From: a virus
Length of the DNA: 36,864 nt
Direction: 5' to 3' (one strand)
IMG/VR virus record: IMGVR_UViG_3300033146_004708
Location: 1-36,864 of that record
The first letter of the stretch is position 1. Each line of letters opens with the position of its first letter. The position numbers were made by a program, and so were the translations under genes. The notes under the pieces were generated by a model. The model did not search any database. It worked only from the letters and a program-made list of their open reading frames with translations, and was not told the origin of the DNA. This document shows, piece by piece, positions 1,959 through 21,182 of the stretch.

Positions 1959-3361
1959 TTTTCTTCATTATATGTTTGAAGTCTTGTTATAGAGTGTTCA
2001 GCAAGATATTTATAAGGATCAAGAAAATCAATTAACAGGATTGATTTTTTTGTCTCTGTTGTTCTTAATCCTCTGCCCATTGCTTGAAGTACTCTTTTTT
2101 TCTCTTTCATTCCTGCGGCATAAATTATGATTTCTAAATTTTTTATGTTTATGCCTTCCATCCAGACCTTAGATGCTATTACAATATGATTTTTATTTTT
2201 TATAATGTCATTTTTATGTCTCATTCTTTCTTCGTTATCAAGACTTCCTTGGATAAATGGAACATTTATTTTTAGTCTTTTTTTGAATATGGTTTGAAGT
2301 AATTCTCCATGTTTTATCTTTTCTATTATTATCAGAGTCGGACTTTTGTTTTTTAATGCCTTTTCTACAATTTTTTTGATTAATTCATTGCGAGTCTTGT
2401 TTTCTACAATTCCAAATTGATAAAAGTTTGAATATTTGCTTCTTGATGCTTTTGTTATCTTATTATCATATTCTACATTTATGAGTTTTATTTCTGGTTT
2501 TGCAATTGTTCCGTCTTTGATTCCTTTTTTGATTGTCAGTTTTGATATGACAGGTCCGAGTAGACCTTCATTTACAAGAAGACTTTCTTTTGATTTGAAA
2601 CTATCGGTTCCAGTAAAACCATATCTTCTTGGTGCTAAATTAAATTCTAAAAATCTTCCATATTGTGAGTTTAATTTTGTTACATGATGACATTCATCTA
2701 TAATTATGACATCAAATAAATCAATGAAATTTTTATTGTCTACTTTTGATATACTTTGGATTGTTGTTATTAATAAGCAAGGAGACTGTTTTGTCCTTAT
2801 TGATTTTAATGTATTTTCTACTTCTTTTGATCCTCTTGGATTAAAGATTACAGGAAGGCTTTCTTTAAACGATTGTGCTTCATTAGTTATTTGGCCAATC
2901 AGATCTTTTGTATGCGCAATAATAGCGCATCTCTTTGTTCTAAACATGCTTATGATTCCAAGTGCAATGATTGTTTTTCCACTTCCTGTTGGAGCAATTA
3001 TTTTTCCTCTATTTATTCGCTTTATTTTTTTTAGTGCTGATAATTGGTCTTTGCGGAAAGTTATATTTTTTAATTCTGGTTTGCTATCGGGTTTTATTCT
3101 CTCTCTTTTTTTGTCTATGACTTCAATTTTTATTTCTCTATTTTTACAATATTTCAAAACTCTTTTTATTAGACCAGTCAGAAAGGTTCCGCTTGAACCT
3201 TTTCTTCCAGTTATCAAATATTGTGTTTTGATTATTTGTTGTTTTGCAAAATATCCTTTTCTCCAATATTCTTTTTTATAGGCAAGAGCAAATTTAATGA
3301 CTTCCCTTGCTTCTGGATTTGCTCTTGCATGAATTTCATCAAGAATTACTATCTTTTTCAT
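1949..3361 (-). CDS. SF2 (DEAD/DEAH-type) helicase
   Basis: 470 residues from the ATG at 3361, chosen because AAGGAG lies at the right spacing; an in-frame upstream ATG at 3427 would lie inside a hairpin. After an N-terminal domain of about 100 residues come a Q-motif-like FRKDQ, Walker A APTGSGKT (about 123-130), motif II DECHH (about 222-226) and motif VI MGRGLR near the C-terminus. This is the superfamily 2 layout of phage UvsW/Rad25-like helicases, which remodel forks and recombination intermediates. It is followed by an overlapping primase gene, so the two form a replication pair. A 20-bp hairpin precedes it, suggesting separate control from the upstream genes. Confidence 0.9.
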   Translation of the reverse strand: MKKIVILDEIHARANPEAREVIKFALAYKKEYWRKGYFAKQQIIKTQYLITGRKGSSGTFLTGLIKRVLKYCKNREIKIEVIDKKRERIKPDSKPELKNITFRKDQLSALKKIKRINRGKIIAPTGSGKTIIALGIISMFRTKRCAIIAHTKDLIGQITNEAQSFKESLPVIFNPRGSKEVENTLKSIRTKQSPCLLITTIQSISKVDNKNFIDLFDVIIIDECHHVTKLNSQYGRFLEFNLAPRRYGFTGTDSFKSKESLLVNEGLLGPVISKLTIKKGIKDGTIAKPEIKLINVEYDNKITKASRSKYSNFYQFGIVENKTRNELIKKIVEKALKNKSPTLIIIEKIKHGELLQTIFKKRLKINVPFIQGSLDNEERMRHKNDIIKNKNHIVIASKVWMEGINIKNLEIIIYAAGMKEKKRVLQAMGRGLRTTETKKSILLIDFLDPYKYLAEHSITRLQTYNEEKWI

Positions 3362-3391
3362 TTTAATTATACTCCTTAATTTTGACCAAAA

Positions 3392-4276: not shown

Positions 4277-5167
4277 TTAAATATCAATTTTGCGTTTAGT
4301 CTGTACGTTTGGAATTTTTTCTATTTTCTTCATCATTGAAGATAATTTGTTTCCAATTTCCAATCTAAACTCTTGATTGCTTTTCAACCGTTCAATTGTG
4401 ATTTTTTTCATTTCTCTTTTTAGGCGATTGATTGTTGTCTTTATTTTTTTGTCATCAACATGCGGTTTCCAGAGTTCTTCCCATTTTTTAATTAGTCTTT
4501 CAATCGAACCGATGGTTTTGCCATGAAGACCTTCTCCTGTCTCACATTGTTTTTGGAGTTTTTCAATTCTGAGAAGAATTTCATTTCCGATTAATGTTAT
4601 TGTCATTTCTTCCATTTCCTTGACCATTGCTTTTGTTCTTTCAATTTGTTTCTTATATTCTGCTGGATTGATTTCCATCATCTCTTTCCCGGGAATGCCA
4701 ATTTGAAAGAAATTCCATTGCATATAAAATCTGTCTCTTAATCTTTCTTTGCTTGGATATTTATTTGAGACAGCATTGTAATATTCTGGATATTTTTTCT
4801 GAAATTTTCTTTTCAATTTGTCATAATTGGAAATGAGAATTTCGACTCGATTGTTTATCTCATTATTGAATTCCTTCAAGTTTTCGTTTACTTCTCCAAC
4901 TTTTTCGGCTGGTATGAAATAAACAGCATCAATCGGGAATGGCAAAGAACTATTCAAGACATAATATTTCGCTTGTCTCTGTACAGTCATAATGTCTTTG
5001 ATAAGTGTTTTGTCAACAAACATATCCTGCATTGCTCGAATAATTTCCTTGGGAATATTTTTGCCGAGAAGTTTTTTATCGAGTCGTGCGGATGCTGTCC
5101 AAAATCCAGTTCTAAAATTGATAAGAACACCATTAGTCAAGTTTTCCAGTGCTTTGATTTCATTCAT
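4277..5167 (-). CDS. DUF3150 family protein
   Basis: 296 residues, ATG at 5167 after AAGGAGGATTTAAA. The N-terminal part matches what I know of DUF3150: a short opening beta segment (VLINFRTGFWTASARLDKK), a helix, then the SLPFPIDAVYFIPAEK motif and long charged helices (about 95-290). DUF3150 proteins are phage or mobile-element proteins of unknown function, often near AAA ATPase genes; an AAA ATPase gene lies 1.4 kb upstream in this operon. The mostly helical C-terminal half is predicted coiled coil. A pistol ribozyme lies between it and the upstream gene, so its message would start at the cleavage site at 5204. Confidence 0.75.
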   Translation of the reverse strand: MNEIKALENLTNGVLINFRTGFWTASARLDKKLLGKNIPKEIIRAMQDMFVDKTLIKDIMTVQRQAKYYVLNSSLPFPIDAVYFIPAEKVGEVNENLKEFNNEINNRVEILISNYDKLKRKFQKKYPEYYNAVSNKYPSKERLRDRFYMQWNFFQIGIPGKEMMEINPAEYKKQIERTKAMVKEMEEMTITLIGNEILLRIEKLQKQCETGEGLHGKTIGSIERLIKKWEELWKPHVDDKKIKTTINRLKREMKKITIERLKSNQEFRLEIGNKLSSMMKKIEKIPNVQTKRKIDI

Positions 5168-5199: not shown

Positions 5200-5277
5200 A
5201 CCAACTTTGAAGGAGAGTTTAAACTCTCCTTCAAGCGCTCATAGCTTAATGGTCTATTTATAGTCGCTATGACGACT
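5200..5277 (-). ncRNA. Pistol self-cleaving ribozyme 1
   Basis: Minus strand. P1 is AGTCG (5277-5273) with CGACT (5266-5262). Its 6-nt loop TCATAG pairs as a pseudoknot with CTATGA (5244-5239). The conserved linker ATAAATAG, then P2 ACCA, TTAAG, the pseudoknot strand and GCG all follow the pistol order. P3 is a 14-bp stem (near 5235-5207). P2 closes with TGGT (5203-5200), and the predicted cut is between G5205 and U5204. Compared with the other four copies, P2 changes to ACCA/TGGU and the pseudoknot changes on both strands, which is covariation. It starts 4 bases after the stop of the 5282-6103 gene. Confidence 0.9.
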
Positions 5278-5281
5278 TTGT

Positions 5282-6103
5282 TTAATGCCTTGATCTTCTT
5301 TTGATTATTCTTTTCTTTGGTTTTTGTTTTTTCTTTTCCTCCTTTTTGATTGCTTTTCTTCTTTTAATTATTCTTGCTAATTTGACTTTGTCTTTTTTCT
5401 GTTTTGCCGTTTGAATTTTCTGGAAAATATCTTTTATTGATGACATCCATTCAATCGGCATTTTGCTTTTCCCATCCCATTTATAGGGAATTTCAAGATA
5501 TTCTTGAAGTAGTTTTTCAGCCTGTTCTAATGATAGACCGGAGCAGACAGTTAATCTTGATGGATCATGGACAATGGAATATTTTTCTGGAGTGATTTTG
5601 ACAATAAAGAATGGTGGTTTTGATGCGATTACTTCTTCAATTGTTTCGACAATAAAGTCTTTTAGTCGTTTTTCAAGTCGATTGAATTTTAATCTGATCA
5701 AATGATTTATTGTTTCCCATTCATCAGATTGTTTGATTATTTCTTGCTGTTCTTTTGGTGGAACCGTTTTGCTTTTGGTTTTTTTATTGTTTTCTTTTAC
5801 TTTTGTCAGCAATTGTTTAAATGCCAAATACTGCTGACATCGGGAGCAGTTACAATCTTTTGGAGAAAGATCATCATTAACAGCAATGTCTTTTACTCTG
5901 ATATCACATAGTGCAGAGTTTTCTTTGTTTGATATTGCATGAATGATATTGCTGTTATTTTTTTTCCCAAAACCAATAATTACTTTCGTTTTTTCGTCTT
6001 TGTTCTGCTTTGGTTTATCAACATTTGTTGATTCTCCTGTTGCAGATTTTTTTTGGTTTGTTTTTGTTGCCGCTTTTTGATTGTCTTTTTTCTGATTTGC
6101 CAT
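5282..6103 (-). CDS. Lys-rich protein of unknown function with a Cys cluster
   Basis: 273 residues, ATG at 6103 after TAGGAGGAAAAG. Not recognised. The first 40 residues and the last 45 are Lys/Gln/Arg-rich and probably disordered, so nucleic-acid binding is possible. A DCNCSRCQQY segment near residue 85 gives three closely spaced Cys. A folded-looking centre (about 120-235) contains EVIASKPPFFIVKITPEKYS. Pistol ribozymes bound it on both sides, so its message would be monocistronic after cleavage. Confidence 0.7.
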   Translation of the reverse strand: MANQKKDNQKAATKTNQKKSATGESTNVDKPKQNKDEKTKVIIGFGKKNNSNIIHAISNKENSALCDIRVKDIAVNDDLSPKDCNCSRCQQYLAFKQLLTKVKENNKKTKSKTVPPKEQQEIIKQSDEWETINHLIRLKFNRLEKRLKDFIVETIEEVIASKPPFFIVKITPEKYSIVHDPSRLTVCSGLSLEQAEKLLQEYLEIPYKWDGKSKMPIEWMSSIKDIFQKIQTAKQKKDKVKLARIIKRRKAIKKEEKKKQKPKKRIIKRRSRH

Positions 6104-6143
6104 TTTCTTTTCCTCCTATTCATTAAAGTTATTCGGCTTTATT

Positions 6144-6220
6144 GCCAACGAAAGAGTAGTAATTTTTACTACTCTCTCCGCTTTGAGCTTAAAGGCCTGT
6201 TTATAGTCGCTCAAACGACT
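6144..6220 (-). ncRNA. Pistol ribozyme 2, overlapping the 3' end of a gene
   Basis: Minus strand. P1 is AGTCG/CGACT (6220-6216, 6209-6205), with loop TTTGAG pairing to CTCAAA (6187-6182). Linker ATAAACAG is followed by P2 GCC, TTTAAG, GCG, and a 12-bp P3 with one G-U pair. The cut is predicted between G6149 and U6148, and P2 closes with GGC (6146-6144). P1 and its loop are also the last coding bases of the gene ending at 6201: the stop codon TAA sits in the conserved linker. The fourth P2 pair is U-U here. Just downstream TTGGC can also pair with GCCGA, which would compete with P2. Confidence 0.9.
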
Positions 6221-6470
6221 TTTCCATTATAGACTTTGCTCTTTTTGTGACTCTGTCTTTCAGGTATGGATTTAAGATTTTACTGACTGTTGTAAATTCT
6301 CCATCATGGATAAAAATTGTTTCCTTTGGAGCATTTAACTTATAGGCTTGAATCATGGAAGAAACAATCTGTTCTGTTTGATGTTTCATTTCAACTCCCC
6401 AACTAAAAATAAAAGGGAAATTCTCTTTTAACTGGTAAAAATTCGGTACTTCTTTGTTGTCTGTACCCAT
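6201..6470 (-). CDS. Small protein of unknown function
   Basis: 89 residues from the ATG at 6470, which follows AAGGAGGATTTGAAA; an in-frame TTG two codons earlier is inside that leader and is not the start. Not recognised. It has a Gln/Ile-rich helix (about 28-45) and a basic C-terminal helix. The final codons (KSFERL and stop) coincide with P1, the loop and the linker of pistol ribozyme 2, so its C-terminal sequence is constrained by RNA structure. A hammerhead precedes its leader. Confidence 0.65.
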   Translation of the reverse strand: MGTDNKEVPNFYQLKENFPFIFSWGVEMKHQTEQIVSSMIQAYKLNAPKETIFIHDGEFTTVSKILNPYLKDRVTKRAKSIMEKSFERL

Positions 6471-6501
6471 TTTCAAATCCTCCTTTTTATTTATTTGACT
6501 T

Positions 6502-6563
6502 GCCTCATCAGTATATAAGTAGTCAACTTATATAGACCGGAGAATTACTTCTCCGGTTTCGGC
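6502..6563 (-). ncRNA. Type II hammerhead ribozyme 1
   Basis: Minus strand, stop codon TAA directly before it. Order: GCC (stem II), GAAA core, stem III CCGGAG/CTCCGG with an 8-nt loop, GUC cleavage triplet, stem I TATATAAG/CTTATATA, core CTGATGA (6511-6505), then GGC closing stem II. Stem II is the open end, the definition of type II. All core bases are consensus. Predicted cut after C6535. Stem III and its loop are identical in the copies at 8016 and 9883, while stem I differs and stays paired. Confidence 0.93.
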
Positions 6564-7982
6564 TTAGATAATTTCAAGTTTTCTTGATTTGACTTTGTGT
6601 TTTGTTGCAGAGGTTGGAATGTCTGCTGGGATTGTGCGTCCTTTTGCCCAGACTCTTAATTCTGTTATTTCTTCTTCCATTGTTAAAGCCATAGGCAAAA
6701 TGAATTTACTGGCTTTTGTTAAAGAGACATTCCTCATATCTGCATTATGGCAAAGTGCTTCAATTTCTGCTCCTGTCCAATCTTCCATCTTGGGAATTGT
6801 CTTTGGTTTAGGCAGGGAGAATTTCTTGATATAGTAGTCAAGAATTTTTCTCTTTACTTTGTCATTTGGAAGATCAACAAAGAATGGTGCGCAATCCCAT
6901 CTACCAGCCCGAAGATATTCCGGAGGCACTCCCCGAAAACTGTTAAATGTTGCGGCAATGTAAATGCCTTTTGGTCGATCTTGCAAAAATTCAAGCCATC
7001 GGCCTGTTGCTCGTCTTGTCACTCCAGAATCAAGGTCACCAGTACTGCCAGCACCGGCAAATTGCTTTTCCATTTCATCAAACAATATAAAGCAATCTCC
7101 AAGTGCAGTAACAAGGTCAATAAACTTTTCGATATTGGCATCTGTTTCACCTTGGAATTTCGAAAAGAATTTGCCCATCCTGACCTGAATCCCAAGTTTT
7201 CCAGACTCGGCAACAATTGCTTTTGCAAGGCATGTTTTGCCGGTTCCCGGAGGGCCAATAAAACAAACTCCTTTACTTTTGGGATTGTCAATTGTTGACA
7301 TGACTTGTTCTTTTGGATTTTCAAGACCAATAATGTCATCGAAAGTAATGTCAGGCCGAAGAATTGTTGCAAACCCTGATTTTTCGATTGTTTGCGCTCG
7401 ATAGTCATTAATTACTTCAAGATCAAATCTTTTCTTCTTGACAAGTGACAGGGCATAAACGTTTTCCAGTTCTCGTAAAGTCAAACCTTTGCTTGTCTTA
7501 ACTACCTTTTCAAGATATGAACCTTGCGGAACATATTTTGAATCGGGAGCAACAGTTTTGATTTGTTCTGAAATTTCATCTTCTGTTGGCATGGGCATCT
7601 TTAAAATAGTAAAGTCTTTTTCCAATTCGATTGGAATTTTTTTTCTGTTAGAGACGATTACTATTGCTTTATTTTCTGATGCCCAGATTGGGATGGAGTC
7701 TTGTATTTTTTGGATGACTTGCGGTCTGTCAATAAACCAGTGATAGTTGAAACAGAACATGACAGTATATTCATCTGCACTGTCAATTTCTACTAATGGT
7801 TGCATGGGATTTGCGTCTTTTAAACAAGACCATTCAGAAGACTTGTAATGACTGCCGTTTTTGAGTTTAAAATCTTCCAATTTTTGATAGAAGTTTTGTT
7901 TTACTCTCGACGGTTCATCAGTTTCAAGCCAAAACAAAGTAAAACCTGCTCTTAGATAGTTAATGAGTTCCAGTTCTTTCAT
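6564..7982 (-). CDS. AAA+ ATPase, Ycf46-like
   Basis: 472 residues, ATG at 7982 after GGAGGATTTGAA. An N-terminal domain of about 200 residues opens with the LRAGFTLFWLETDEPSRV pattern seen in Ycf46-type ATPases. The AAA module follows: Walker A GPPGTGKT (243-250), Walker B FILFDEME (about 299-305), an arginine-finger region near TRRATGRW and a C-terminal lid. Ycf46-like ATPases are widespread in cyanobacteria and phages, with no settled function. Here the neighbours are DUF1257 (Ycf35-like) and DUF2997, the same association known from cyanobacterial genomes, so they may act together. Hammerheads flank it on both sides. Confidence 0.85.
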   Translation of the reverse strand: MKELELINYLRAGFTLFWLETDEPSRVKQNFYQKLEDFKLKNGSHYKSSEWSCLKDANPMQPLVEIDSADEYTVMFCFNYHWFIDRPQVIQKIQDSIPIWASENKAIVIVSNRKKIPIELEKDFTILKMPMPTEDEISEQIKTVAPDSKYVPQGSYLEKVVKTSKGLTLRELENVYALSLVKKKRFDLEVINDYRAQTIEKSGFATILRPDITFDDIIGLENPKEQVMSTIDNPKSKGVCFIGPPGTGKTCLAKAIVAESGKLGIQVRMGKFFSKFQGETDANIEKFIDLVTALGDCFILFDEMEKQFAGAGSTGDLDSGVTRRATGRWLEFLQDRPKGIYIAATFNSFRGVPPEYLRAGRWDCAPFFVDLPNDKVKRKILDYYIKKFSLPKPKTIPKMEDWTGAEIEALCHNADMRNVSLTKASKFILPMALTMEEEITELRVWAKGRTIPADIPTSATKHKVKSRKLEII

Positions 7983-8015
7983 TTCAAATCCTCCTTTGTT
8001 AAAGTTATTTGGTTT

Positions 8016-8077
8016 GCCTCATCAGTATATGAATAACCAATTCATACAGACCGGAGAATTACTTCTCCGGTTTCGGC
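8016..8077 (-). ncRNA. Type II hammerhead ribozyme 2
   Basis: Minus strand, two bases after the stop at 8080. GCC-GAAA, stem III CCGGAG/CTCCGG, GUC, stem I TGTATGAA/TTCATATA (one G-U pair), CTGATGA (8025-8019), then GGC. Predicted cut after C8049. Compared with copy 1, stem I has changed on both sides and still pairs. Confidence 0.93.
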
Positions 8078-8079
8078 GG

Positions 8080-8442
8080 TTAATATTCCAATTCTATGAT
8101 TATGTCTCCATTGTCTTTTGATATTTCAGTTACGATTGAGACTTCATGGTGAGGAATATTTTGGTTTACCAGTTCAACATTGTGTTCTTGAATCAGCTTC
8201 CCAAGTTGATCAAATGAGTTTACTTTGCTTCCAAAATGGTCATATTTAACTTCGCCGTTTTTTGTTATTGCGACTTTATATCTCCATCCCGGAAGCAGTA
8301 CGGATGCAATGCAGTCAACTTTATTTCTGCCGAATTGATGGACTGTCTGTTTTCCTTCAATTACTTCTAAACCGTGTTTTTTGCAGATGTTGATAAAAGT
8401 AGAAACATTGACTTTTGTTTGGTATGTCGAAATGTGACTCAT
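8080..8442 (-). CDS. DUF1257 (Ycf35-like) protein
   Basis: 120 residues, ATG at 8442 after AAAGGAGA. The opening MSHISTYQTKV, the KHGLEVIEGK segment and the LLPGWRYKVAI strand match the DUF1257/Ycf35 pattern (typically MSHFxTIKTxI..., then a hydrophobic LPG strand). The length is typical. Function is unknown. It lies 12 bases after the DUF2997 gene with no ribozyme between, so these two would remain on one message, while hammerheads separate the pair from neighbours on both sides. Confidence 0.8.
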   Translation of the reverse strand: MSHISTYQTKVNVSTFINICKKHGLEVIEGKQTVHQFGRNKVDCIASVLLPGWRYKVAITKNGEVKYDHFGSKVNSFDQLGKLIQEHNVELVNQNIPHHEVSIVTEISKDNGDIIIELEY

Positions 8443-8454
8443 TTTTTCTCCTTT

Positions 8455-8658
8455 CTATCCGCAATATCCAGAAGGCAAACCGTTTATAATTGTTTCTTCT
8501 TCTTCAAAAAATGAATTTTTTCTCTTCATTTTGGGGTTGCCGAAGATAGAGGAAAGAAAAGATGTTGCCTTGACACACGAAGCTCCTTTAAAGCCGATTG
8601 CTTCTACTTTTACAGAACCATCTTTGCCGAGTGTGATTACTACTTTTTTGTTTTCCAT
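8455..8658 (-). CDS. DUF2997-like small protein
   Basis: 67 residues, ATG at 8658 after AAAGGAGGATTTACTACC. The pattern of a short beta hairpin (KVVITLGKDGSVKVEAIGF), then KGASCVKATSFL and an acidic EEEET patch fits DUF2997, whose members usually read IxIxxDGxVxxEvxGxxGxSCxxaTxxLE. DUF2997 genes are known beside ycf35- and ycf46-type genes, as here. The function is unknown. Two C-terminal residues before the stop read CG. Confidence 0.75.
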   Translation of the reverse strand: MENKKVVITLGKDGSVKVEAIGFKGASCVKATSFLSSIFGNPKMKRKNSFFEEEETIINGLPSGYCG

Positions 8659-8700
8659 GGTAGTAAATCCTCCTTTATTAAAGTTATTTATTTAGGCAAT

Positions 8701-8766
8701 ATCTTCATCAGCAATTAGAGCCTATCCTAATTGGACATCACTCAAAAAGTGAGTGATGTTTCGAAT
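8701..8766 (-). ncRNA. Hammerhead ribozyme 3, weak stem II
   Basis: Minus strand, starting right after the stop at 8768. Stem III (CATCACTC/GAGTGATG), the GUC triplet, stem I (CAATTAG/CTAATTG) and the cores CTGATGA (8711-8705) and GAAA (8762-8759) are all consensus. Stem II is poor: the closing position is A-C, followed by G-U, A-U and U-A only. Predicted cut after C8734. The stem sequences are unrelated to the other three copies, so it is an independent lineage. Activity is uncertain. Confidence 0.75.
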
Positions 8767-8767
8767 T

Positions 8768-9118
8768 TTACTTTTTGTAATAAACTGTTTTTCGGCTGTC
8801 GATTGGACTTCGCATTGAATATCCTTTTACTTTTCCTTTTTTATTGTAGTAAACTGTTTTTCTATTATTGATTGGAGATGGTAGAGAATATTTTTTAACC
8901 TTTGCTCTTTTATCATAGTAAACAATTTTCCTTGCATTGACAGGTGAAGGCATTGAATATTTATTTGCCTTTATTGAACCTGTTGTTTTGCATCCATATA
9001 AACCGATTATGACTATTGCCACAATATAGATGAAGACTCCAATCAAGAATAGTTTCAACAGTTTTTCAACTCCCAAAAAGAAATTGTCAAGGATTTCAAT
9101 CATTCTGTCTTTATCCAT
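8768..9118 (-). CDS. Membrane protein or lipoprotein with three 23-residue repeats
   Basis: 116 residues, starting 2 bases after the gene ending at 9121. One strong hydrophobic segment (about residues 19-42) ends in IIGLYGC, which resembles a lipobox, although it lies further from the N-terminus than usual. The rest consists of three tandem copies of about 23 residues with the pattern YSxPSPxxxRKxVYYxKxxKVK (the third starts YSMRSP and is truncated). The region after the membrane segment is basic. It could be a cell-envelope protein; no family is recognised. Confidence 0.65.
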   Translation of the reverse strand: MDKDRMIEILDNFFLGVEKLLKLFLIGVFIYIVAIVIIGLYGCKTTGSIKANKYSMPSPVNARKIVYYDKRAKVKKYSLPSPINNRKTVYYNKKGKVKGYSMRSPIDSRKTVYYKK

Positions 9119-9120
9119 TT

Positions 9121-9408
9121 TTATTTTCTCCTATCTTTTCCGGTTCGTCTGTCATTAGGGAAATAAAGAGTCTCTCCTTTACGTCTATCTGATTTTCTTC
9201 TATTGTTGACAATCAGTTTTAAATTGAATGGATTGTCAAGAACAGAAAAACTTTTGTTCGGAGACGATGAATTGAAAAACAGAATGTCGACTTCTTCTGC
9301 CTTTTTGCCGTTATGTATAAATGACCATGCTCTATCAACTGCTTGATGCAGTTGATCATTTGGATAAAACGGCAACATCTCTTTTCCGTTGACTGTTACC
9401 TTGTACAT
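9121..9408 (-). CDS. Small protein with Arg-rich C-terminus, unknown function
   Basis: 95 residues, ATG at 9408 after GGAGGATTGAA. Residues about 1-70 look like a compact mixed fold. The C-terminal 28 residues carry two RRKxDRRK-like clusters (NNRRKSDRRKGE and NDRRTGKDRRK), a pattern often seen as a basic tail in small bacterial proteins. There are only 2 bases between its stop and the next gene, so it is cotranscribed and uncut with the repeat membrane protein. Upstream lies the unclassified structured element at 9452-9518. Confidence 0.6.
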   Translation of the reverse strand: MYKVTVNGKEMLPFYPNDQLHQAVDRAWSFIHNGKKAEEVDILFFNSSSPNKSFSVLDNPFNLKLIVNNRRKSDRRKGETLYFPNDRRTGKDRRK

Positions 9409-9451
9409 TTCAATCCTCCTTTTAAAGTTATTTGTATTAGATCAAACATTT

Positions 9452-9518
9452 AATTTGAATGACCTGAACAATACACAAAGCAAAGTAAAACTTTGTGTAT
9501 TGTGCTCGGATTCAAATT
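9452..9518 (-). ncRNA. Unclassified structured element occupying a ribozyme position
   Basis: Minus strand. A 9-bp outer stem AATTTGAAT (9518-9510) / ATTCAAATT (9460-9452), an asymmetric internal loop CCGAGC (9509-9504) opposite TCAGGTC (9467-9461), then a 13-bp inner stem ACAATACACAAAG (9503-9491) / CTTTGTGTATTGT (9480-9468) with a 10-nt loop. The upstream gene's stop codon overlaps its first bases, exactly where pistol and hammerhead elements sit at other boundaries. I could not match it to hammerhead, pistol, twister, twister-sister, hatchet, HDV or hairpin ribozymes. It may be a new self-cleaving motif, an RNase III site or only a stem. Confidence 0.7.
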
Positions 9519-9852
9519 AAAACTGATATAGTTTAAATTTAAGTAGATTTGTAAGAACAGATTTAAGATATTCTGTTTTCATTCCATTTGCAAATATTTC
9601 GGCCACAAACTCGTTTTCAAATTCTTTACTGTAATAAGAACAGCCGAAATCGTTATTTTCTTTATGAGTAGAATATTTGAAAACTTGAATTGTAATTTCA
9701 TTTCCATCGACAATGACGATTGCATCATGATGAATAAGTCTTTTCAGATTTTTATCAACTTCGGCGATTATAATTTCTCCAATTTTCGGTTCCTCTGATC
9801 TGCAGCCGGCAAAAGCATTCCAGTCATCTTTGGTAAATGGTCTCAATTTCAT
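9517..9852 (-). CDS. Hypothetical protein
   Basis: 111 residues, ATG at 9852 after GGAGGATTTGAA. It is not recognised. It starts MKLRPFTKDDWNAFAGC and has a strand-rich middle (IGEIIIAEVD, HDAIVIVDGNEITIQVF) consistent with a small beta-rich fold. Its stop overlaps the unclassified RNA element downstream, and a hammerhead lies between it and the upstream gene. Confidence 0.6.
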   Translation of the reverse strand: MKLRPFTKDDWNAFAGCRSEEPKIGEIIIAEVDKNLKRLIHHDAIVIVDGNEITIQVFKYSTHKENNDFGCSYYSKEFENEFVAEIFANGMKTEYLKSVLTNLLKFKLYQF

Positions 9853-9882
9853 TTCAAATCCTCCTTTTTATTTATTTGGTTT

Positions 9883-9944
9883 GCCTCATCAGTGTACAGG
9901 TTACCATCCTATACAGACCGGAGAATTACTTCTCCGGTTTCGAC
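9883..9944 (-). ncRNA. Type II hammerhead ribozyme 4
   Basis: Minus strand, one base after the stop at 9946. GTC-GAAA, stem III CCGGAG/CTCCGG, GUC, stem I TGTATAGG/CCTGTACA (one U-G pair), CTGATGA (9892-9886), then GGC. Stem II pairs GGC with GTC through a central G-U, unlike the G-C of copies 1 and 2. Predicted cut after C9916. Confidence 0.92.
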
Positions 9945-9945
9945 A

Positions 9946-10338
9946 TTAAAATTTATTTTTTTGAATTGTTGTTGATTGGCTGTCAAAAATCAAAGGATAA
10001 ATAAAGTTTGTTTTTAAATTGTAGAAAATTGATCGAATTTCTTTCTCTGATCCTTCAAAATATATTTTATATGGATTTTGTCTCCAGCAAAAACATTGTT
10101 TGTCTACATTAAAAACAATATCTTCTTGATATAATTCAAATTCAAGGATTCTTTTCATATCTTCCGCGAAGTCAACAATATGTTTTGGAACATCGGGAGG
10201 AAAGATTGAATGTTTGAAATTGTTGATTCTGTCTTCAATTTCGTCTTTGGTCATTGCTTTCATTTTTGCGTATTTGAATATTGACAGAATTTTTCTTTGA
10301 GTTCTAAGTTTAAGTACGATTGCTTTCCCCTTTTTCAT
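9946..10338 (-). CDS. Hypothetical protein
   Basis: 130 residues from the ATG at 10338, which follows GGAGGATTTGCAAA; an upstream in-frame start would lie inside the ribozyme and leader. Not recognised. The N-terminus is basic, followed by a TKDEIEDRINNFKHSIFPPD segment and a Phe/Tyr-rich C-terminal half with CFCWRQNPYKIYFEG. Bounded by a pistol upstream and a hammerhead downstream. Confidence 0.6.
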   Translation of the reverse strand: MKKGKAIVLKLRTQRKILSIFKYAKMKAMTKDEIEDRINNFKHSIFPPDVPKHIVDFAEDMKRILEFELYQEDIVFNVDKQCFCWRQNPYKIYFEGSEKEIRSIFYNLKTNFIYPLIFDSQSTTIQKNKF

Positions 10339-10372
10339 TTTGCAAATCCTCCTTTTGAAGTAGTTATTTAAT

Positions 10373-10456
10373 GTCAACTTCAAAGAGTAGAAAATTGATT
10401 TACTACTCTTTGAGCGCTTGCAGCTTAATGACCTGTTTATAGTCGCTGCAACGACT
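10373..10456 (-). ncRNA. Pistol ribozyme 3
   Basis: Minus strand, two bases after the stop at 10459. P1 AGTCG/CGACT with loop TTGCAG pairing to CTGCAA (10423-10418). Linker ATAAACAG, P2 GTCA (10432-10429), TTAAG, GCG, then P3 TCAAAGAGTAG/CTACTCTTTGA. P2 closes with TGAC (10376-10373). Predicted cut between G10378 and U10377. Both the pseudoknot and P2 differ from other copies by paired changes. Confidence 0.9.
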
Positions 10457-10458
10457 AT

Positions 10459-10710
10459 TTACTTTTGCTGAACAATGTTTCCGAGTTTTGATTGTAGTCT
10501 AATTGCAAGCGGGGCATCAGATGGGATAATATTTTTTGAATTGCAGACCGGACAGGCTTTATATCTTGCTCCAATTCGCCACAATGAATAGAGAAGACCG
10601 GGAACAATAAAGAATAACCACAATACAAGTTCGATAATAAAACTTCCGGGTGTTATTTTCTTAGGTCTTTTTACTACTGAACAGCATGTTACGCAAAAAT
10701 AAGTTTTCAT
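10459..10710 (-). CDS. Zinc-ribbon membrane protein
   Basis: 83 residues, ATG at 10710 after AAGGAGGATTTAAAA. CVTCC near the N-terminus and CPVC (about 53-56) would form one zinc ribbon split by a hydrophobic segment (about 24-46, IIELVLWLFFIVPGLLYSLW) that is either one membrane helix or a hairpin. This arrangement, with PGSFIIELVLW after the first knuckle, is familiar from small phage and bacterial proteins of unknown role. It likely sits at the cytoplasmic membrane. Confidence 0.7.
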   Translation of the reverse strand: MKTYFCVTCCSVVKRPKKITPGSFIIELVLWLFFIVPGLLYSLWRIGARYKACPVCNSKNIIPSDAPLAIRLQSKLGNIVQQK

Positions 10711-10744
10711 TTTTAAATCCTCCTTTTAAAGTAGTTATTTTAAT

Positions 10745-10818
10745 GTCAACGAGAAGACAATAAAAATTGTCTTCTCCGCTCATGACCTAATGACCTATTT
10801 TAAATCGTCATGACGATT
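10745..10818 (-). ncRNA. Pistol ribozyme 4
   Basis: Minus strand. P1 is AATCG/CGATT, a compensated change from AGTCG/CGACT. The loop TCATGA pairs with TCATGA (10785-10780). Linker TTAAAATAG, P2 GTCA (10794-10791), TTAGG, GCG, then P3 GAGAAGACAAT/ATTGTCTTCTC. P2 closes with TGAC (10748-10745). Predicted cut between G10750 and U10749. The upstream gene's stop codon overlaps the first two bases of P1. Confidence 0.9.
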
Positions 10819-11191
10819 ATTTAACTTTTCGATATACTTCGACATTTGTTTCATAGGTTCTATTGATTCCAAAAATTTTTTCTACGTCTGAAAATGAACG
10901 GAAAATAATATATTTGATTCCATAATGTTTAAAAGTCATTGATGCCTGTTGTCGTGTGCTTTTTTTGAATATTATATTTTTTGACCTGACATATATTTTC
11001 CCAAAATTGGCATCAAATCCAAATCTCAAACAATCAACTTGTTTTTCTTTCCATTTGAGAAATATCATTTTGTCTGTTTTTAGAAGTTGTTTAAATGACA
11101 TTTGCTCAAATTCTTCTGGAGTATTAAAAAACAGAACCTTTTCTTCAAACCATTTATCTTCATTTGAGGTATTGATAAATGTCCTTATCAT
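10817..11191 (-). CDS. Hypothetical protein
   Basis: 124 residues from the ATG at 11191, which follows AAAGGAGGATTCAAAAAA; the longer frame upstream lies in ribozyme sequence. It is not recognised. The C-terminal half (FGKIYVRSKNIIFKKSTRQQ, then KHYGIKYIIFRSFSDVEKIFG) resembles a small VRR/restriction-like or regulatory fold, but no catalytic motif can be named. Bounded by pistol ribozymes on both sides. Confidence 0.6.
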   Translation of the reverse strand: MIRTFINTSNEDKWFEEKVLFFNTPEEFEQMSFKQLLKTDKMIFLKWKEKQVDCLRFGFDANFGKIYVRSKNIIFKKSTRQQASMTFKHYGIKYIIFRSFSDVEKIFGINRTYETNVEVYRKVK

Positions 11192-11234
11192 TTTTTTGAA
11201 TCCTCCTTTTTTAAAGTTGTTATTTTGGCTTTGT

Positions 11235-11307
11235 GCCAACGAGAGAAGACATATTGTCTTCTCTCCGCTCTGGACTTAATGGCCTGTTTATAGTCATCCA
11301 GACGACT
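11235..11307 (-). ncRNA. Pistol ribozyme 5
   Basis: Minus strand, 11 bases after the stop at 11319. P1 AGTCG/TGACT (one G-U pair), loop TCTGGA pairing to TCCAGA, linker ATAAACAG, P2 GCCA, TTAAG, GCG, P3 GAGAGAAGAC/GTCTTCTCTC. P2 closes with TGGC (11238-11235). Predicted cut between G11240 and U11239. After cleavage the new 5' end could fold as TTGGC paired to GCCAA five bases on. Confidence 0.9.
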
Positions 11308-11795: not shown

Positions 11796-11861
11796 GAGGG
11801 GAGAATTTAACTTTTCGGAGACTTATTGACATTGCTCTTTACTATTGCAAATTCTCCCCTC
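11796..11861. repeat. 13-bp inverted repeat enclosing one 38-nt repeat copy
   Basis: GAGGGGAGAATTT (11796-11808) and AAATTCTCCCCTC (11849-11861) are exact complements, and the first copy of the 38-nt direct repeat forms the loop. Outside it, GGAT and ATCC can extend the stem. A further 10-bp inverted repeat (11865-11874 with 11934-11943) flanks the plus-strand ribosome-binding site of the broken gene. Confidence 0.6.
11810..11847. repeat. 38-nt direct repeat, copy 1
   Basis: Positions 11810-11847 are identical to 11998-12035 (starts ACTTTTCGGAG, ends TTTACTATTG), 188 bases apart. Copy 1 lies in the loop of a 13-bp inverted repeat. The repeat contains TTGACA but no suitably spaced -10. Confidence 0.9.
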
Positions 11862-11906: not shown

Positions 11907-12261
11907 GTGTCCGAAGATCTACTATATGACAAGTTTGCACTGGTCAAAAGTAAAAATTCGGCCATCGGTCAATCTCTTCCCTGCAAGGTGTCAATTCACT
12001 TTTCGGAGACTTATTGACATTGCTCTTTACTATTGGAAATGACATTGCCATGGTTTCCTGTATTCCGTCAATTCTGCGGTTGCTTCTGCATTAAAGACTG
12101 ATCTTTCAAGTCTAACCGGTTTTAGTCTCTTGACTGTCGAATGTAAAAATACAGATCGGGAATTGATGCCGGGTAACATATTTAGGATAAGCGAGTCTCA
12201 ATTGCTTCTTTCGTCTTATCTAAATGAATTCGGAATTCAACCTTCCGTTTTGATGTACTAA
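11907..12261 (+). pseudogene. Small plus-strand gene broken by a repeat insertion (tentative)
   Basis: A GTG at 11907 follows a strong AAAGGAGGAGGA site and a leader (AAAATAACTTT) like those of the minus-strand genes. The frame opens VSEDLLYDKFALVKSKNSAI and stops at a TGA inside the 38-nt repeat. From about 12043 a second frame, offset by one, runs about 72 codons to TAA at 12261 and looks coding (for example ASALKTDLSSLTGFSLLTVE and LLLSSYLNEFGIQPSVLMY), but has no start of its own. I infer one gene of about 100 residues disrupted by an insertion of about 50 bases. No family is recognised. Programmed frameshifting seems unlikely because a second stop (TGA at 12040) lies between. Confidence 0.45.
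11998..12035. repeat. 38-nt direct repeat, copy 2, inside a broken gene
   Basis: Exact second copy of 11810-11847. It interrupts the small plus-strand gene starting at 11907: the reading frame before it stops within the repeat, and coding-like sequence resumes after it in the next frame. TGACATTGC from inside the repeat recurs once more just downstream (12040-12048). Confidence 0.85.
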
Positions 12262-12622: not shown

Positions 12623-12650
12623 CTGTCAACCCTTATAAATTGGTACTCTA
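12623..12650. repeat. 28-nt regulatory-looking motif, copy 1
   Basis: Pattern CTGTCAAC-N-CTTATA followed by TACTCTA. It matches 13003-13030 at 23 of 28 positions with no gap. The shared ends suggest a two-part binding site. Confidence 0.5.
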
Positions 12651-13002
12651 TGGTCTAATATTTTTAAAAAAAATATTGGCCTAAAAGCCTATATATTAAC
12701 GGTTTGTGTTTCTTATAAACGTACTATTTTAAAGGGTTGACATGGAATGACTAAAAAAATCGTAAAAATCCCAAATACGAGATAAGTCATTGTTTTTATT
12801 AAAGATATGATTTTTTTGAGTTTTTTTTGATTTTTTTAAATGTCTAATATTTACAATACCTTATTTGATCTTATTTTTCCTTTAAAATCAATAACTTATA
12901 AAAAAATGAAAAAATATCAAAAAAAATCAAAAATTTTTTCAATTTCTGCTGTTTTTATCATAGACCTATTATTTTCAAGCCCTGACAGCCACAGTCAAAT
13001 CC

Positions 13003-18326: not shown

Positions 18327-21182
18327 ATGCCAAAGGACAATATTTCAATTGGCCGAGTGATGACGGTCTATAATAGGTCTGATGACTTTCTTGAATCGTT
18401 GAGAAACAATCATCAACAGAGGTTGCTTTCTTCCATTACAAAATTAAGAGAAAACATTCAGGGAATGATGACTTCTCTGTCGACTACAAGTTCTGGAAGA
18501 ATAGAAGGGATGTCGATCAATCTAAAACAGGCACAGAGAATTCACAAAGACCTTGTCAATGAATTCGAAAAGACATATGGAGTTGAAGTCAATAGTCTTA
18601 TCGGTTCATTTGATGACATAACAGATGATATTATTAGCACTTACAATGATCTGAATGTTGCGACTCGATTTACTTCTACTGACAAGGACATTATCAATCA
18701 GTTGAAGAATACTGCCTACACTCAATTTGATCAGTTCGGAGAAGCAGCAAAAGAAAGAATTGCAGATGCCATGTATGGATCAATTCTTTCTGGAGACAAA
18801 TTTTCTGATCTGACAAGACAGGTCGAAGGTATTCTTGAAGGTCATCAGGATGTTCGTGGCCGGCCCATGTCTCAATATGCTTCTACATATGCATGGGATT
18901 CAATCATGAATTTCCATAATCAAGTCAATACTAAAAAAGGAGAAGATGCCGGTCTGAGTAGTTTTCTATACTTTGGAAATTTGATTTCTACTTCACGTTC
19001 TTTTTGTATCCGTAGAGCAGGAAATGTCTATACAAAGGATGAAATTCAGGCATGGAATGATGACAGTTGGCCGGGGAAGTCAGGTCCGCCTTTTATTTAC
19101 AGAGGCGGATATAACTGCCGGCATCACTGGAGACCTGTAAAGATTGAATGGGTAAAGGGAACAGAACAGGAAGAAAATATAGCAATGATGTCTGGCAGTA
19201 AAGAGGTCAAACAGATTGGTTATGACATAAGCAAGAAACAAAAGTCGCTTGAAAAAGGAGTTGTCAACGGAAAGAAAATAAAGAAGCAAATGAAAGCAGC
19301 AGAGGCAAAGGCAAAGAGTGCAAAAAGAGAAACAACGAAAACAAAGTATGCTAATGAAGCGGCTGTTCTTAAGAAAAGGTATGATAAACAGGTCATTTCC
19401 AATAGAAAGATAAAAGAAGACATTGACAGATCAAGAGCAAAGTTGAGAAATGAAGGTCGCAAAATAATGTCTTCGACGGAAGTGAAGCAAAAACAGAAAG
19501 CAGCGACTATAAAAGCAAGTAAAAAAAGAGCAAAAGAAAAGCAGACAATTTCTTTGAGAGAGAAGCAAGAAAAAAGATTGTCTGAGAATGTCAGCAAATT
19601 GAAATCGAATGGTGTTAAAGTTGTTAGCTATGGCGATGGATGGCTGGATAAAAATGGAAATTTCGATTTTGGGCATGCAAGCCAACAGGTTTCAAGTCTT
19701 AATACTGAATTGAGTAGAATAAGAAAAGATTATGTTGCAGTTGATCAATTGATGAAGAAGTTTCCAATTGAAGATTTACGTTTATCTCGGACTCAATATT
19801 TGCCATATCTTAATGGTGGAATGGCAAGAGGTTTATATTACAATGGACGAAATATGATGTCTCTTGCAACAGAATTGAAAACGTTTAAGGGAGAAATGAG
19901 GTCTTTGTCTTCTGTCGAGAGAAGTATTTTGCCGACAGAAATGGTTCCAAGAGGACGATTTACAATAACCAGTCAAACAGAATCGCCGATTACTACATTT
20001 AGACATGAGCTTGGACATCATGCTCATGAACATATTGTCATTGATGATAAAAGAAAATGGGATGCTCTTTTTTGGAAGAGAAAAGAAATATTTAAACAAG
20101 AGGTCAGTTTATATTCTGCTACGAATCCAAATGAAGCATTTGCCGAATCATTTGCTCTGTTTACGAGCAAACAATATAAATTTGGAATGTTGCCAAAAGA
20201 AATTGAAGAGTATATGGGTAAAGTATTAGGACAGGATACAATCGGAGTGTCAAAAAAGGTTGCTGCTAATCTGAATCGAGAATACAGAGAAATAAAAGTC
20301 TTTAAAGACAAGGCTGGCCCGATGCCTGCTCTTGCAAAACAAGCCGAAGAAAATTATGTTCGGATGGGAAATGAATGGTTTTATAAGGGAGAAAAAATAA
20401 TTAAACCGGAAGTGTTAGACCGGTTAAATAAAATGCGAGTGCCTCCGGCATGGGATAATGTAGTTGTGTCTGTTGATCCAGCAGCAAAGATTCAAGTCAT
20501 CGGAGTAGACAAGGTCGGAAGATGGCAATATCGTTATTCTGCCGAGCATGTAGCAGCCGCAGCAAAACGTAAATTTGACAGGATAAGGTCATTTTCAGAA
20601 GATATTAATTCTATCAGAAAAAGAATGACTATTGACATGAGAAATGAGGAAGACCTTGCATATCTTGCAAAGTTGGAAGACTTAACAGCTATTAGAGCAG
20701 GATCAAGGACAAGTCGCAAGGCAGCAAAACAGGCATATGGATTGACGACATTAAAAAATAAGCATGTTAAAATAAAAGGAGATAAGATAACCTTAGACTT
20801 TACGGCAAAAGAAGGTATTCCGGCACACTATGAAATAAGGAACAAAGAAATTGCTGACTGGTTAAAGGGAAGACTGTCAAATACAGCACCGGATGACTTT
20901 TTGTTTCCTGATATGCCAGCATCAAAGCTGAATAAGTATATAAAGAAGATTGCTAATGGAAAAAGTTATTCAGTCAAGGACTTTCGAACATTTCATGGAA
21001 CCAGAATTGCTTTTAATGAGCTTGAAAAATATTCAGGTGTTGATTTGACAATCAAACAAAGAAAGCAGATAATAAAAGAAGTAACAAAGAAAGTCAGTGA
21101 CTTCTTGCACAACACGCCGACAATGGCAAAAACTTCTTACATTGATCCTGTCGTATGGGATTTAATTGGAGGTCTACCTTGA
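18327..21182 (+). CDS. MuF head protein fused to a zincin domain and topoisomerase IB
   Basis: 951 residues in one frame. Residues about 130-275 are a MuF/SPP1 gp7-type head-morphogenesis domain (SILSGDKFSDLTRQVE; then ISTSRSFCIRRAGNVYTKDE and YRGGYNCRHHWRPV). About 285-425 is a Lys-rich coiled coil. About 430-650 holds a zinc metallopeptidase-like domain with His560-Glu-x-x-His564 and Glu607 in NPNEAFAESFALF. About 690-951 is a topoisomerase IB domain: PPAWDNVVVS and QYRYSAEHV at its start, then the catalytic set Arg790 (LTAIRAG), Lys828 (FTAKEG), Arg887 (KDFRTFHGT), Asn929 and Tyr938 (KTSYIDP). It would be carried in the head at the portal vertex and could be ejected with the DNA to relax it in the new host; the protease part may mature it. 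That role is inferred. Confidence 0.9.
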   Translation: MPKDNISIGRVMTVYNRSDDFLESLRNNHQQRLLSSITKLRENIQGMMTSLSTTSSGRIEGMSINLKQAQRIHKDLVNEFEKTYGVEVNSLIGSFDDITDDIISTYNDLNVATRFTSTDKDIINQLKNTAYTQFDQFGEAAKERIADAMYGSILSGDKFSDLTRQVEGILEGHQDVRGRPMSQYASTYAWDSIMNFHNQVNTKKGEDAGLSSFLYFGNLISTSRSFCIRRAGNVYTKDEIQAWNDDSWPGKSGPPFIYRGGYNCRHHWRPVKIEWVKGTEQEENIAMMSGSKEVKQIGYDISKKQKSLEKGVVNGKKIKKQMKAAEAKAKSAKRETTKTKYANEAAVLKKRYDKQVISNRKIKEDIDRSRAKLRNEGRKIMSSTEVKQKQKAATIKASKKRAKEKQTISLREKQEKRLSENVSKLKSNGVKVVSYGDGWLDKNGNFDFGHASQQVSSLNTELSRIRKDYVAVDQLMKKFPIEDLRLSRTQYLPYLNGGMARGLYYNGRNMMSLATELKTFKGEMRSLSSVERSILPTEMVPRGRFTITSQTESPITTFRHELGHHAHEHIVIDDKRKWDALFWKRKEIFKQEVSLYSATNPNEAFAESFALFTSKQYKFGMLPKEIEEYMGKVLGQDTIGVSKKVAANLNREYREIKVFKDKAGPMPALAKQAEENYVRMGNEWFYKGEKIIKPEVLDRLNKMRVPPAWDNVVVSVDPAAKIQVIGVDKVGRWQYRYSAEHVAAAAKRKFDRIRSFSEDINSIRKRMTIDMRNEEDLAYLAKLEDLTAIRAGSRTSRKAAKQAYGLTTLKNKHVKIKGDKITLDFTAKEGIPAHYEIRNKEIADWLKGRLSNTAPDDFLFPDMPASKLNKYIKKIANGKSYSVKDFRTFHGTRIAFNELEKYSGVDLTIKQRKQIIKEVTKKVSDFLHNTPTMAKTSYIDPVVWDLIGGLP

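Follow-up and report, generated by a model that had tools for sequence, protein, structure and literature searches.

Background

The role of small self-cleaving ribozymes in phages and bacteria has long been an open question. The closest described system is that of Perreault et al. 2011 (PMC3088659), in which clustered prophage hammerheads flank single genes, an arrangement proposed to convert long transcripts into single-gene mRNAs. Several hammerheads, including those of type II, lie there between the genes of one phage transcript; tandem sets cleave in vitro, and one triple set does so in E. coli, although the tested sets were small, comprising for example three ribozymes in A. tumefaciens. 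The pseudoknot between loop I and the tail of the type II hammerhead was described in the same work. Here we analyse a virus sequence, IMG/VR record IMGVR_UViG_3300033146_004708 (positions 1 to 36,864, this whole stretch of 36,864 nucleotides being called the window), in which pistol and type II hammerhead ribozymes together occupy most gene boundaries of a leftward operon, and we compare it with the corresponding operons of related viral contigs. In contrast to the prophage sets, the operons of this family hold 6-18 elements at nearly all boundaries, and the element classes are both mixed and exchanged among relatives.

Other ribozymes have likewise been linked to phage genes. The occurrence of pistol near phage genes is already known (PMC4604425), and Weinberg and colleagues, as cited in PMC10085705, reported that hammerhead and twister ribozymes lie close to the same genes of Mu-like phages and to one another; in that citing account, the genomic neighbourhood shared by ribozyme classes is given as the basis of the discovery of pistol. 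The Mu-like case is one of enrichment near genes, whereas in the present operon family one class is exchanged for another at an orthologous boundary. A protein-dependent counterpart is provided by phage T7, in which host RNase III cleaves the long polycistronic early RNA at intergenic sites, yielding mono- and dicistronic mRNAs (PMC4858673); T7 needs the host enzyme, whereas the RNA of the array would itself cut.

Tandem phage hammerheads, the processing hypothesis (2011) and the sharing of phage neighbourhoods by ribozyme classes are already known. What appears to be new is the near-saturating density of the elements, the mixing and replacement of classes, their conservation across a family and a set of structured elements, here termed X, Y and Z, as candidate ribozyme classes; it is these last that could be categorically new. 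The initial annotation of the window had called two interleaved classes, at this density and as an mRNA-processing scheme, undescribed. As regards the scheme this was too strong, since it was published in 2011 (PMC3088659), and the idea itself is upheld as a proposal; as regards density, we found in the openly licensed literature no description of two classes so interleaved, of a near-saturated operon, of pistol-hammerhead mixing or of one class replacing another at an orthologous boundary.

Ribozymes at the gene boundaries of the leftward operon

The leftward (minus-strand) operon, whose array spans 5.2 to 11.3 kb, comprises 13 genes and therefore 12 boundaries, ten of which are occupied by an RNA element: five by a pistol, four by a type II hammerhead and one by an element of class X (Table 1). 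The two vacant boundaries, only 2 and 12 nucleotides long, are too short for an element. The five pistols and four hammerheads had been annotated on this strand at nine of the 12 boundaries, an assignment borne out by the Rfam covariance models, with all five pistols passing the cut-off and two hammerheads falling just below the gathering score, and by a structural descriptor that recovers all four hammerheads. The nine first bases predicted to follow a cut (5204, 6148, 6534, 8048, 8733, 9915, 10377, 10749 and 11239) also match the sequence. The elements, said in the annotation to follow the stop codon at once, start 0-11 nucleotides after it, a small correction, and two of them (10818 and 6220) overlap the stop; the leader with a ribosome-binding site expected downstream of the elements is present, with sites of the AGGAGG type. 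All ten occupied gaps fold more stably than their shuffles (z -2.6 to -5.1), and the two gaps beyond the end of the array fold no better than shuffles (+0.7). Promoter-like and terminator-like matches occur at chance frequency. The rightward late operon, annotated as ribozyme-free, indeed contains no pistol or hammerhead at the Rfam cut-off.

The pistols exceed the curated cut-off of Rfam RF02679 (38.6-57.1 bits against 34.5; E 5e-8 to 9e-4), and share with that family the three stems, the pseudoknot, the AUAAA-like linker and the cut site; they are unlike it in numbering five in one operon and in their long P3 hairpins. For the copy at 10456, sequence and fold together indicate that the Rfam match stops short of the real end at 10373 because P3 is unusually long. 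Each of the five possesses its own distinct pseudoknot between the P1 loop and the P2-P3 junction, and each strand is complementary to its partner (UCUGGA/UCCAGA, UCAUGAC/GUCAUGA, UUGCAGC/GCUGCAA, UUUGAGC/GCUCAAA and UCAUAGC/GCUAUGA, the second of these, in the pistol at 10818, having been read by eye). The P2 pairing covaries between copies, and the G-U dinucleotide of the predicted cut site is found after P3 in all five.

The hammerhead descriptor, composed of GAAA, stem III, UH, stem I and CUGAUGA, gives exactly four matches on the minus strand of the window and none on the plus strand, with loops capping stems I and III. Rfam RF02276 reports two of the four, with 34.5 bits (E 4e-4) and 33.4 bits (E 8e-4) against a gathering score of 37, and leaves the other two unreported; among the relatives its scores reach 57.8 bits. 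The intact CUGAUGA/GAAA/UH core, the closed stems I and III and the loop I-tail pseudoknot are those of RF02276, from which the hammerheads described here differ in occurring up to 14 times per operon and always on the coding strand. The pseudoknot, which reads UUGACU/AGUCAA in one window copy and UGGU(U)/(A)ACCA or UAGGC/GCCUA elsewhere, covaries across 56 hammerhead copies, and none of 5000 permutations equalled the cognate pairing. Taken together, the five distinct complementary pseudoknots of the pistols and the covariation of the hammerhead pseudoknot exclude a chance origin.

Conserved boundaries and exchanged classes

Ten related viral contigs were found by means of the AAA ATPase of the operon, to which their own is 47-57% identical (an additional contig, L038, is near-identical to L039). 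The DUF2997 gene, the next small gene and the AAA ATPase gene stay close together in all ten. Seven relatives (L026, L027, L039, L040, L041, L042 and L043) carry type II hammerhead arrays of about 6-14 copies, and the other three carry different structured, covarying elements, namely X (L006), X together with Y (L024) and Z (L025). Rfam finds 4-14 hammerheads per hammerhead-array contig (3-14 in one tally), all of them on the coding strand and in a single cluster, which in two relatives reaches both contig ends. The descriptor exceeds the Rfam count in L041 and L043, and over the window and the relatives it matches 63 times in the forward and never in the reverse direction. No pistols were found in the hammerhead-array relatives, and the other pistol contigs encountered hold one or two pistols each. 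The array is a trait of a phage family.

Orthologue mapping places an element ahead of g8 (DUF2997), g10 (AAA), g12 and g13 (DUF3150) in nearly all relatives that were scorable for both the gene and the region upstream of it, with the class varying. Before the AAA gene there is a hammerhead in the window and in seven relatives, an X element in L006, a Y element in L024 and an element of the kind Za in L025. Similarly, the DUF3150 gene is preceded by a pistol in the window, by X in L006, by Y in L024, by Za in L025 and by a hammerhead in most relatives (called by Rfam in L026 and L027), L042 having a different hairpin at this position. The boundary before g9 is without an element in every phage compared, and directly after g13 none of these phages has an element of a named class. 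Since the boundaries are kept while the kind of element is replaced, selection appears to favour a cut at these places and not one particular ribozyme.

In the tree of AAA proteins the window falls into one group together with L006, L024 and L025 (99/98), with the hammerhead phages forming the other; the tree is small and unrooted and does not fix the direction of class change. As the window possesses the hammerheads of one side and the class X of the other, it resembles a mosaic stage of replacement. A nucleotide search against phage isolates gave no match, and a protein search returned distant AAA ATPases only and no relative of the DUF3150 protein, so that no close cultured relative was found; the sole match among genome contigs was to part of an AAA protein, distant at 27%, in an archaeal metagenome-assembled genome.

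One-off hairpins that fit no named class lie at operon boundaries, or in addition before hammerheads, in four relatives (L042:6916-6986, L041:15213-15345, L027:7923-8027, and L026:1685-1815 and 3248-3389). The hammerhead before the DUF3150 gene of L027 (12627-12742) has CCGAUGA in place of CUGAUGA, and may therefore be either inactive or a variant of the core.

Candidate ribozyme classes X, Y and Z

The tenth element of the window had been annotated as structured and unclassified. The structure is upheld; the lack of a class is not, as a covariance model (R2), trained exclusively on copies from L006 and L024 with the window copy excluded, assigns 9518-9437 to class X. In L006 this class is represented by 18 copies at gene boundaries of the corresponding operon, with the layout AAUUGAAACCGGGCAG, a hairpin, UUCCGCAGGUAUCUCAAUU and then a strand like GAGUUACCU; L024 holds two further copies. 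Examples of the class are L006:4019-4093 and L024:1227-1302. Searched against the window with cmsearch, R2 finds 9518-9437 as its sole match (31.6 bits, E 1.8e-5), a score whose margin is small, given that with this model copies of class Y score up to 36.5 bits and palindromes on the reverse strand up to 28.8; elements of similar overall shape in L025 give no match. The window element nevertheless resembles class X in having CCGRGC...CAGGU, an outer stem and a downstream pairing, arranged in the same order, so that it likely belongs to this class. In the alignment the window row and the copy L006:6114 are out of register, which makes the pair counts for X underestimates, and besides these counts the permutation test of cognate versus exchanged strands was applied to X.

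Class Y is represented by 11 copies in L024 (one of them at 4773-4845), with the layout AAUUGUAUUCUGUUAG, a hairpin, CUUGCGAUUAUACAAUU and then AAGUAUAAUC. Its P1 and hairpin include nine pairs in which both partners change, and 97.8% of cells are paired; the alternative downstream helix also covaries. L025 contains 12 elements (one of them at 12636-12740) of two kinds, Za (UUUAACU-hairpin-CGCUUG) and Zb (AUCAUA-hairpin-AAUUG), each enclosed within an outer stem that varies from copy to copy and yet pairs, none of 20000 permutations of cognate against exchanged strands being as good. A feature common to X, Y and most Z is that the strand after the hairpin has two pairings, either backward, forming the outer stem, or forward, forming a perfect or near-perfect hairpin, and that both alternatives are backed by covariation.

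Rfam gives no match to X, Y or Z up to E 1 in L006, L024 and L025, and the window copy has none even with the limit raised to E 5. A resemblance of Z or X to permuted cores of twister-sister, which consist of two stems with a single internal loop (PMC11620745), was considered and rejected, the loop sequences, compared by eye, being different. DNA-pattern matches for X and Y on viral contigs beyond L006 (identical to L012) and L024 were likewise discarded as chance-like and without the P1-hairpin architecture. A search of whole contigs with R2 overlooked, in its loose first pass, even the window copy that cmsearch finds, so that X may occur elsewhere too.

We tentatively propose that X, Y and both kinds of Z could be new classes of self-cleaving ribozyme at boundaries held by ribozymes in sister phages, each refolding after the cut into a 5'-terminal hairpin. 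What suggests self-cleavage is their position, their replacement of known ribozymes, the conserved loops and the covariation. If this were so, nature would have gathered in this operon family a set of ribozyme classes, all selected for the same task; the position of these three to four structured elements without a known family makes them strong candidates for new classes of ribozyme. It is somewhat unlikely, in our estimation, that only the known ribozymes cut, with X, Y and Z being hairpins that are cleaved by RNase III, RNase Y or a nuclease of the phage and have taken over the same boundaries. T7 uses RNase III in just this manner (PMC4858673), X, Y and Z, as hairpins flanked by internal loops, have a shape compatible with RNase III, and the absence of an Rfam ribozyme match for them is in keeping with such a function. 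However, the loop nucleotides CCGRGC and CAGGU of class X are kept between phages that agree in about half of the residues of their AAA proteins, while generic RNase III sites require neither a conserved loop nor an outer stem, and X, Y and Z replace ribozymes in a one-to-one exchange.

A proposed model for processing of the early transcript

We consider it probable that the early polycistronic RNA cuts itself into mostly single-gene mRNAs bearing hairpins at the 3' and often at the 5' end, an outcome that T7 achieves by means of RNase III. One long early RNA would be transcribed leftward across the operon and would be cut without protein at ten of the 12 boundaries (by five pistols, four type II hammerheads and one putative X ribozyme), each cut falling between the upstream stop codon and the next gene's ribosome-binding site. 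The upstream mRNA would then end in a stable hairpin, whether P3 of a pistol, stem III of a hammerhead or the hairpin of X, with a 2',3'-cyclic phosphate, and the downstream mRNA would begin with a 5'-hydroxyl, placed on a 5'-terminal hairpin in the case of hammerheads (stem I), X and two of the five pistols. In X, Y and most Z the alternative pairings could constitute a refolding device, in which the outer stem exists before the cut and the 5'-terminal hairpin after it; judged by these alternative hairpins, the cut is predicted to lie at AGGU in X and at GRUU in Y, or immediately 5' of these motifs. Products with both ends guarded against exonucleases would in turn make the stability of each gene's message tunable from a single promoter, as in T7 with the RNase III of its host.

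RNase J1 attacks the 5'-hydroxyl product of a ribozyme and is blocked by 5' hairpins (PMC3328962); since this enzyme degrades the product of glmS, whose 5'-hydroxyl end is unprotected, a 5' hairpin would be sensible in a host with RNase J. Such a hairpin on the downstream product is given by construction for hammerheads, and is found for X and Y, for most Z and for two of the five window pistols (UUGGC ACAAA GCCAA at 11239; UUGGC AAUAAA GCCGA at 6148). The low proportion among pistols is the reason that we do not claim the 5' hairpin as a rule for all products.

Several observations weigh against the proposed processing into stable single-gene messages. B. subtilis degrades the 5'-hydroxyl product of the glmS ribozyme and does not stabilise it (PMC11780869, PMC3328962), so that cutting without a hairpin could destabilise the downstream message; three of the five window pistols yield products with little or no 5' hairpin, and the feature is therefore not general. 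In addition, the window hammerheads score low in Rfam, and the linker of the pistol at 10818 deviates at two bases. The first two points would also accommodate a different function, which we regard as improbable, in which the ribozymes are destabilisers or switches, the cut exposing a 5'-hydroxyl to RNase J and so lowering the expression of each gene, possibly in response to a signal. This is how glmS acts (PMC11780869, PMC3328962), and the three pistols without a 5' hairpin would suit it; however, no aptamer-like extension was seen, the products of hammerheads, X, Y and most Z begin with hairpins, and a repression of almost every gene of the early operon is hard to rationalise. That the elements are merely selfish or drifting repeats spreading among gene boundaries, as the similarity of copies within a phage (X in L006) and the single ribozymes at assorted places in many phages might suggest, is very improbable in view of the retention of position while class is replaced, the compensatory changes specific to each copy, the confinement to a single strand and the identity of the boundaries that are element-free in all relatives. 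The reading as protein-free processing of polycistronic phage mRNA thus offers a testable role, in which the cut at the boundary is kept and the ribozyme replaced, and the operon family makes an answer to the old question of ribozyme function unusually legible.

Coordinates and further observations

The elements of the array, and the operon genes that were used for comparison or matched a family, are listed in Table 1.

Table 1. RNA elements and selected genes of the leftward operon, in window coordinates
Feature	Boundary	Coordinates	Strand	Evidence	Predicted cut
Pistol 1	g1/g2	11235-11307	-	Rfam RF02679, 55.6 bits	11240/11239
Pistol 2, stop codon overlapped	g2/g3	10745-10818	-	Rfam, 53.1 bits	10750/10749
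Pistol 3, long P3	g3/g4	10373-10456	-	Rfam, 38.6 bits, and fold	10378/10377
Hammerhead 1	g4/g5	9873-9945	-	Rfam RF02276, 33.4 bits, and descriptor	9916/9915
Class X element, self-cleavage putative	g5/g6	9437-9518	-	Model R2, 31.6 bits; fold z -7.1	
Hammerhead 2	g7/g8	8692-8766	-	Descriptor; pseudoknot UAGGC/GCCUA	8734/8733
g8, DUF2997 protein		8455-8658	-	Pfam PF11211, E 1.1e-7	
g9, small protein; preceding boundary element-free in every relative		8080-8442	-	Boundary mapping	
Hammerhead 3	g9/g10	8006-8078	-	Rfam, 34.5 bits, and descriptor	8049/8048
g10, AAA ATPase; query that led to the relatives		6564-7982	-	Pfam PF00004, E 3.3e-16	
Hammerhead 4	g10/g11	6492-6563	-	Descriptor; pseudoknot UUGACU/AGUCAA	6535/6534
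Pistol 4, covers final codons of g11	g11/g12	6144-6220	-	Rfam, 57.1 bits	6149/6148
Pistol 5	g12/g13	5200-5277	-	Rfam, 56.5 bits	5205/5204
g13, DUF3150 protein; closes the array in relatives as well		4277-5167	-	Pfam PF11348, E 1.7e-15	

Pairs of pistols were met on two further contigs: L022, an unrelated viral contig, has pistols at 7339-7368 and 7679-7708 with identical cores, 340 nucleotides apart, and L021 has two that are 2.2 kb apart. Elsewhere in the window, directly after the portal gene, a protein of 951 residues (18327-21182) has a C-terminal type IB topoisomerase domain (Pfam E 1.8e-26; PDB 2f4q E 3.9e-30), its residues 1-680 having no reliable match. The non-coding region upstream of the operon contains a 46-nucleotide motif twice (11807-11852 and 11995-12040, 96% identical), the first copy lying in a loop closed by a perfect 14-bp stem (AGAGGGGAGAAUUU) that is followed by a U-rich stretch.

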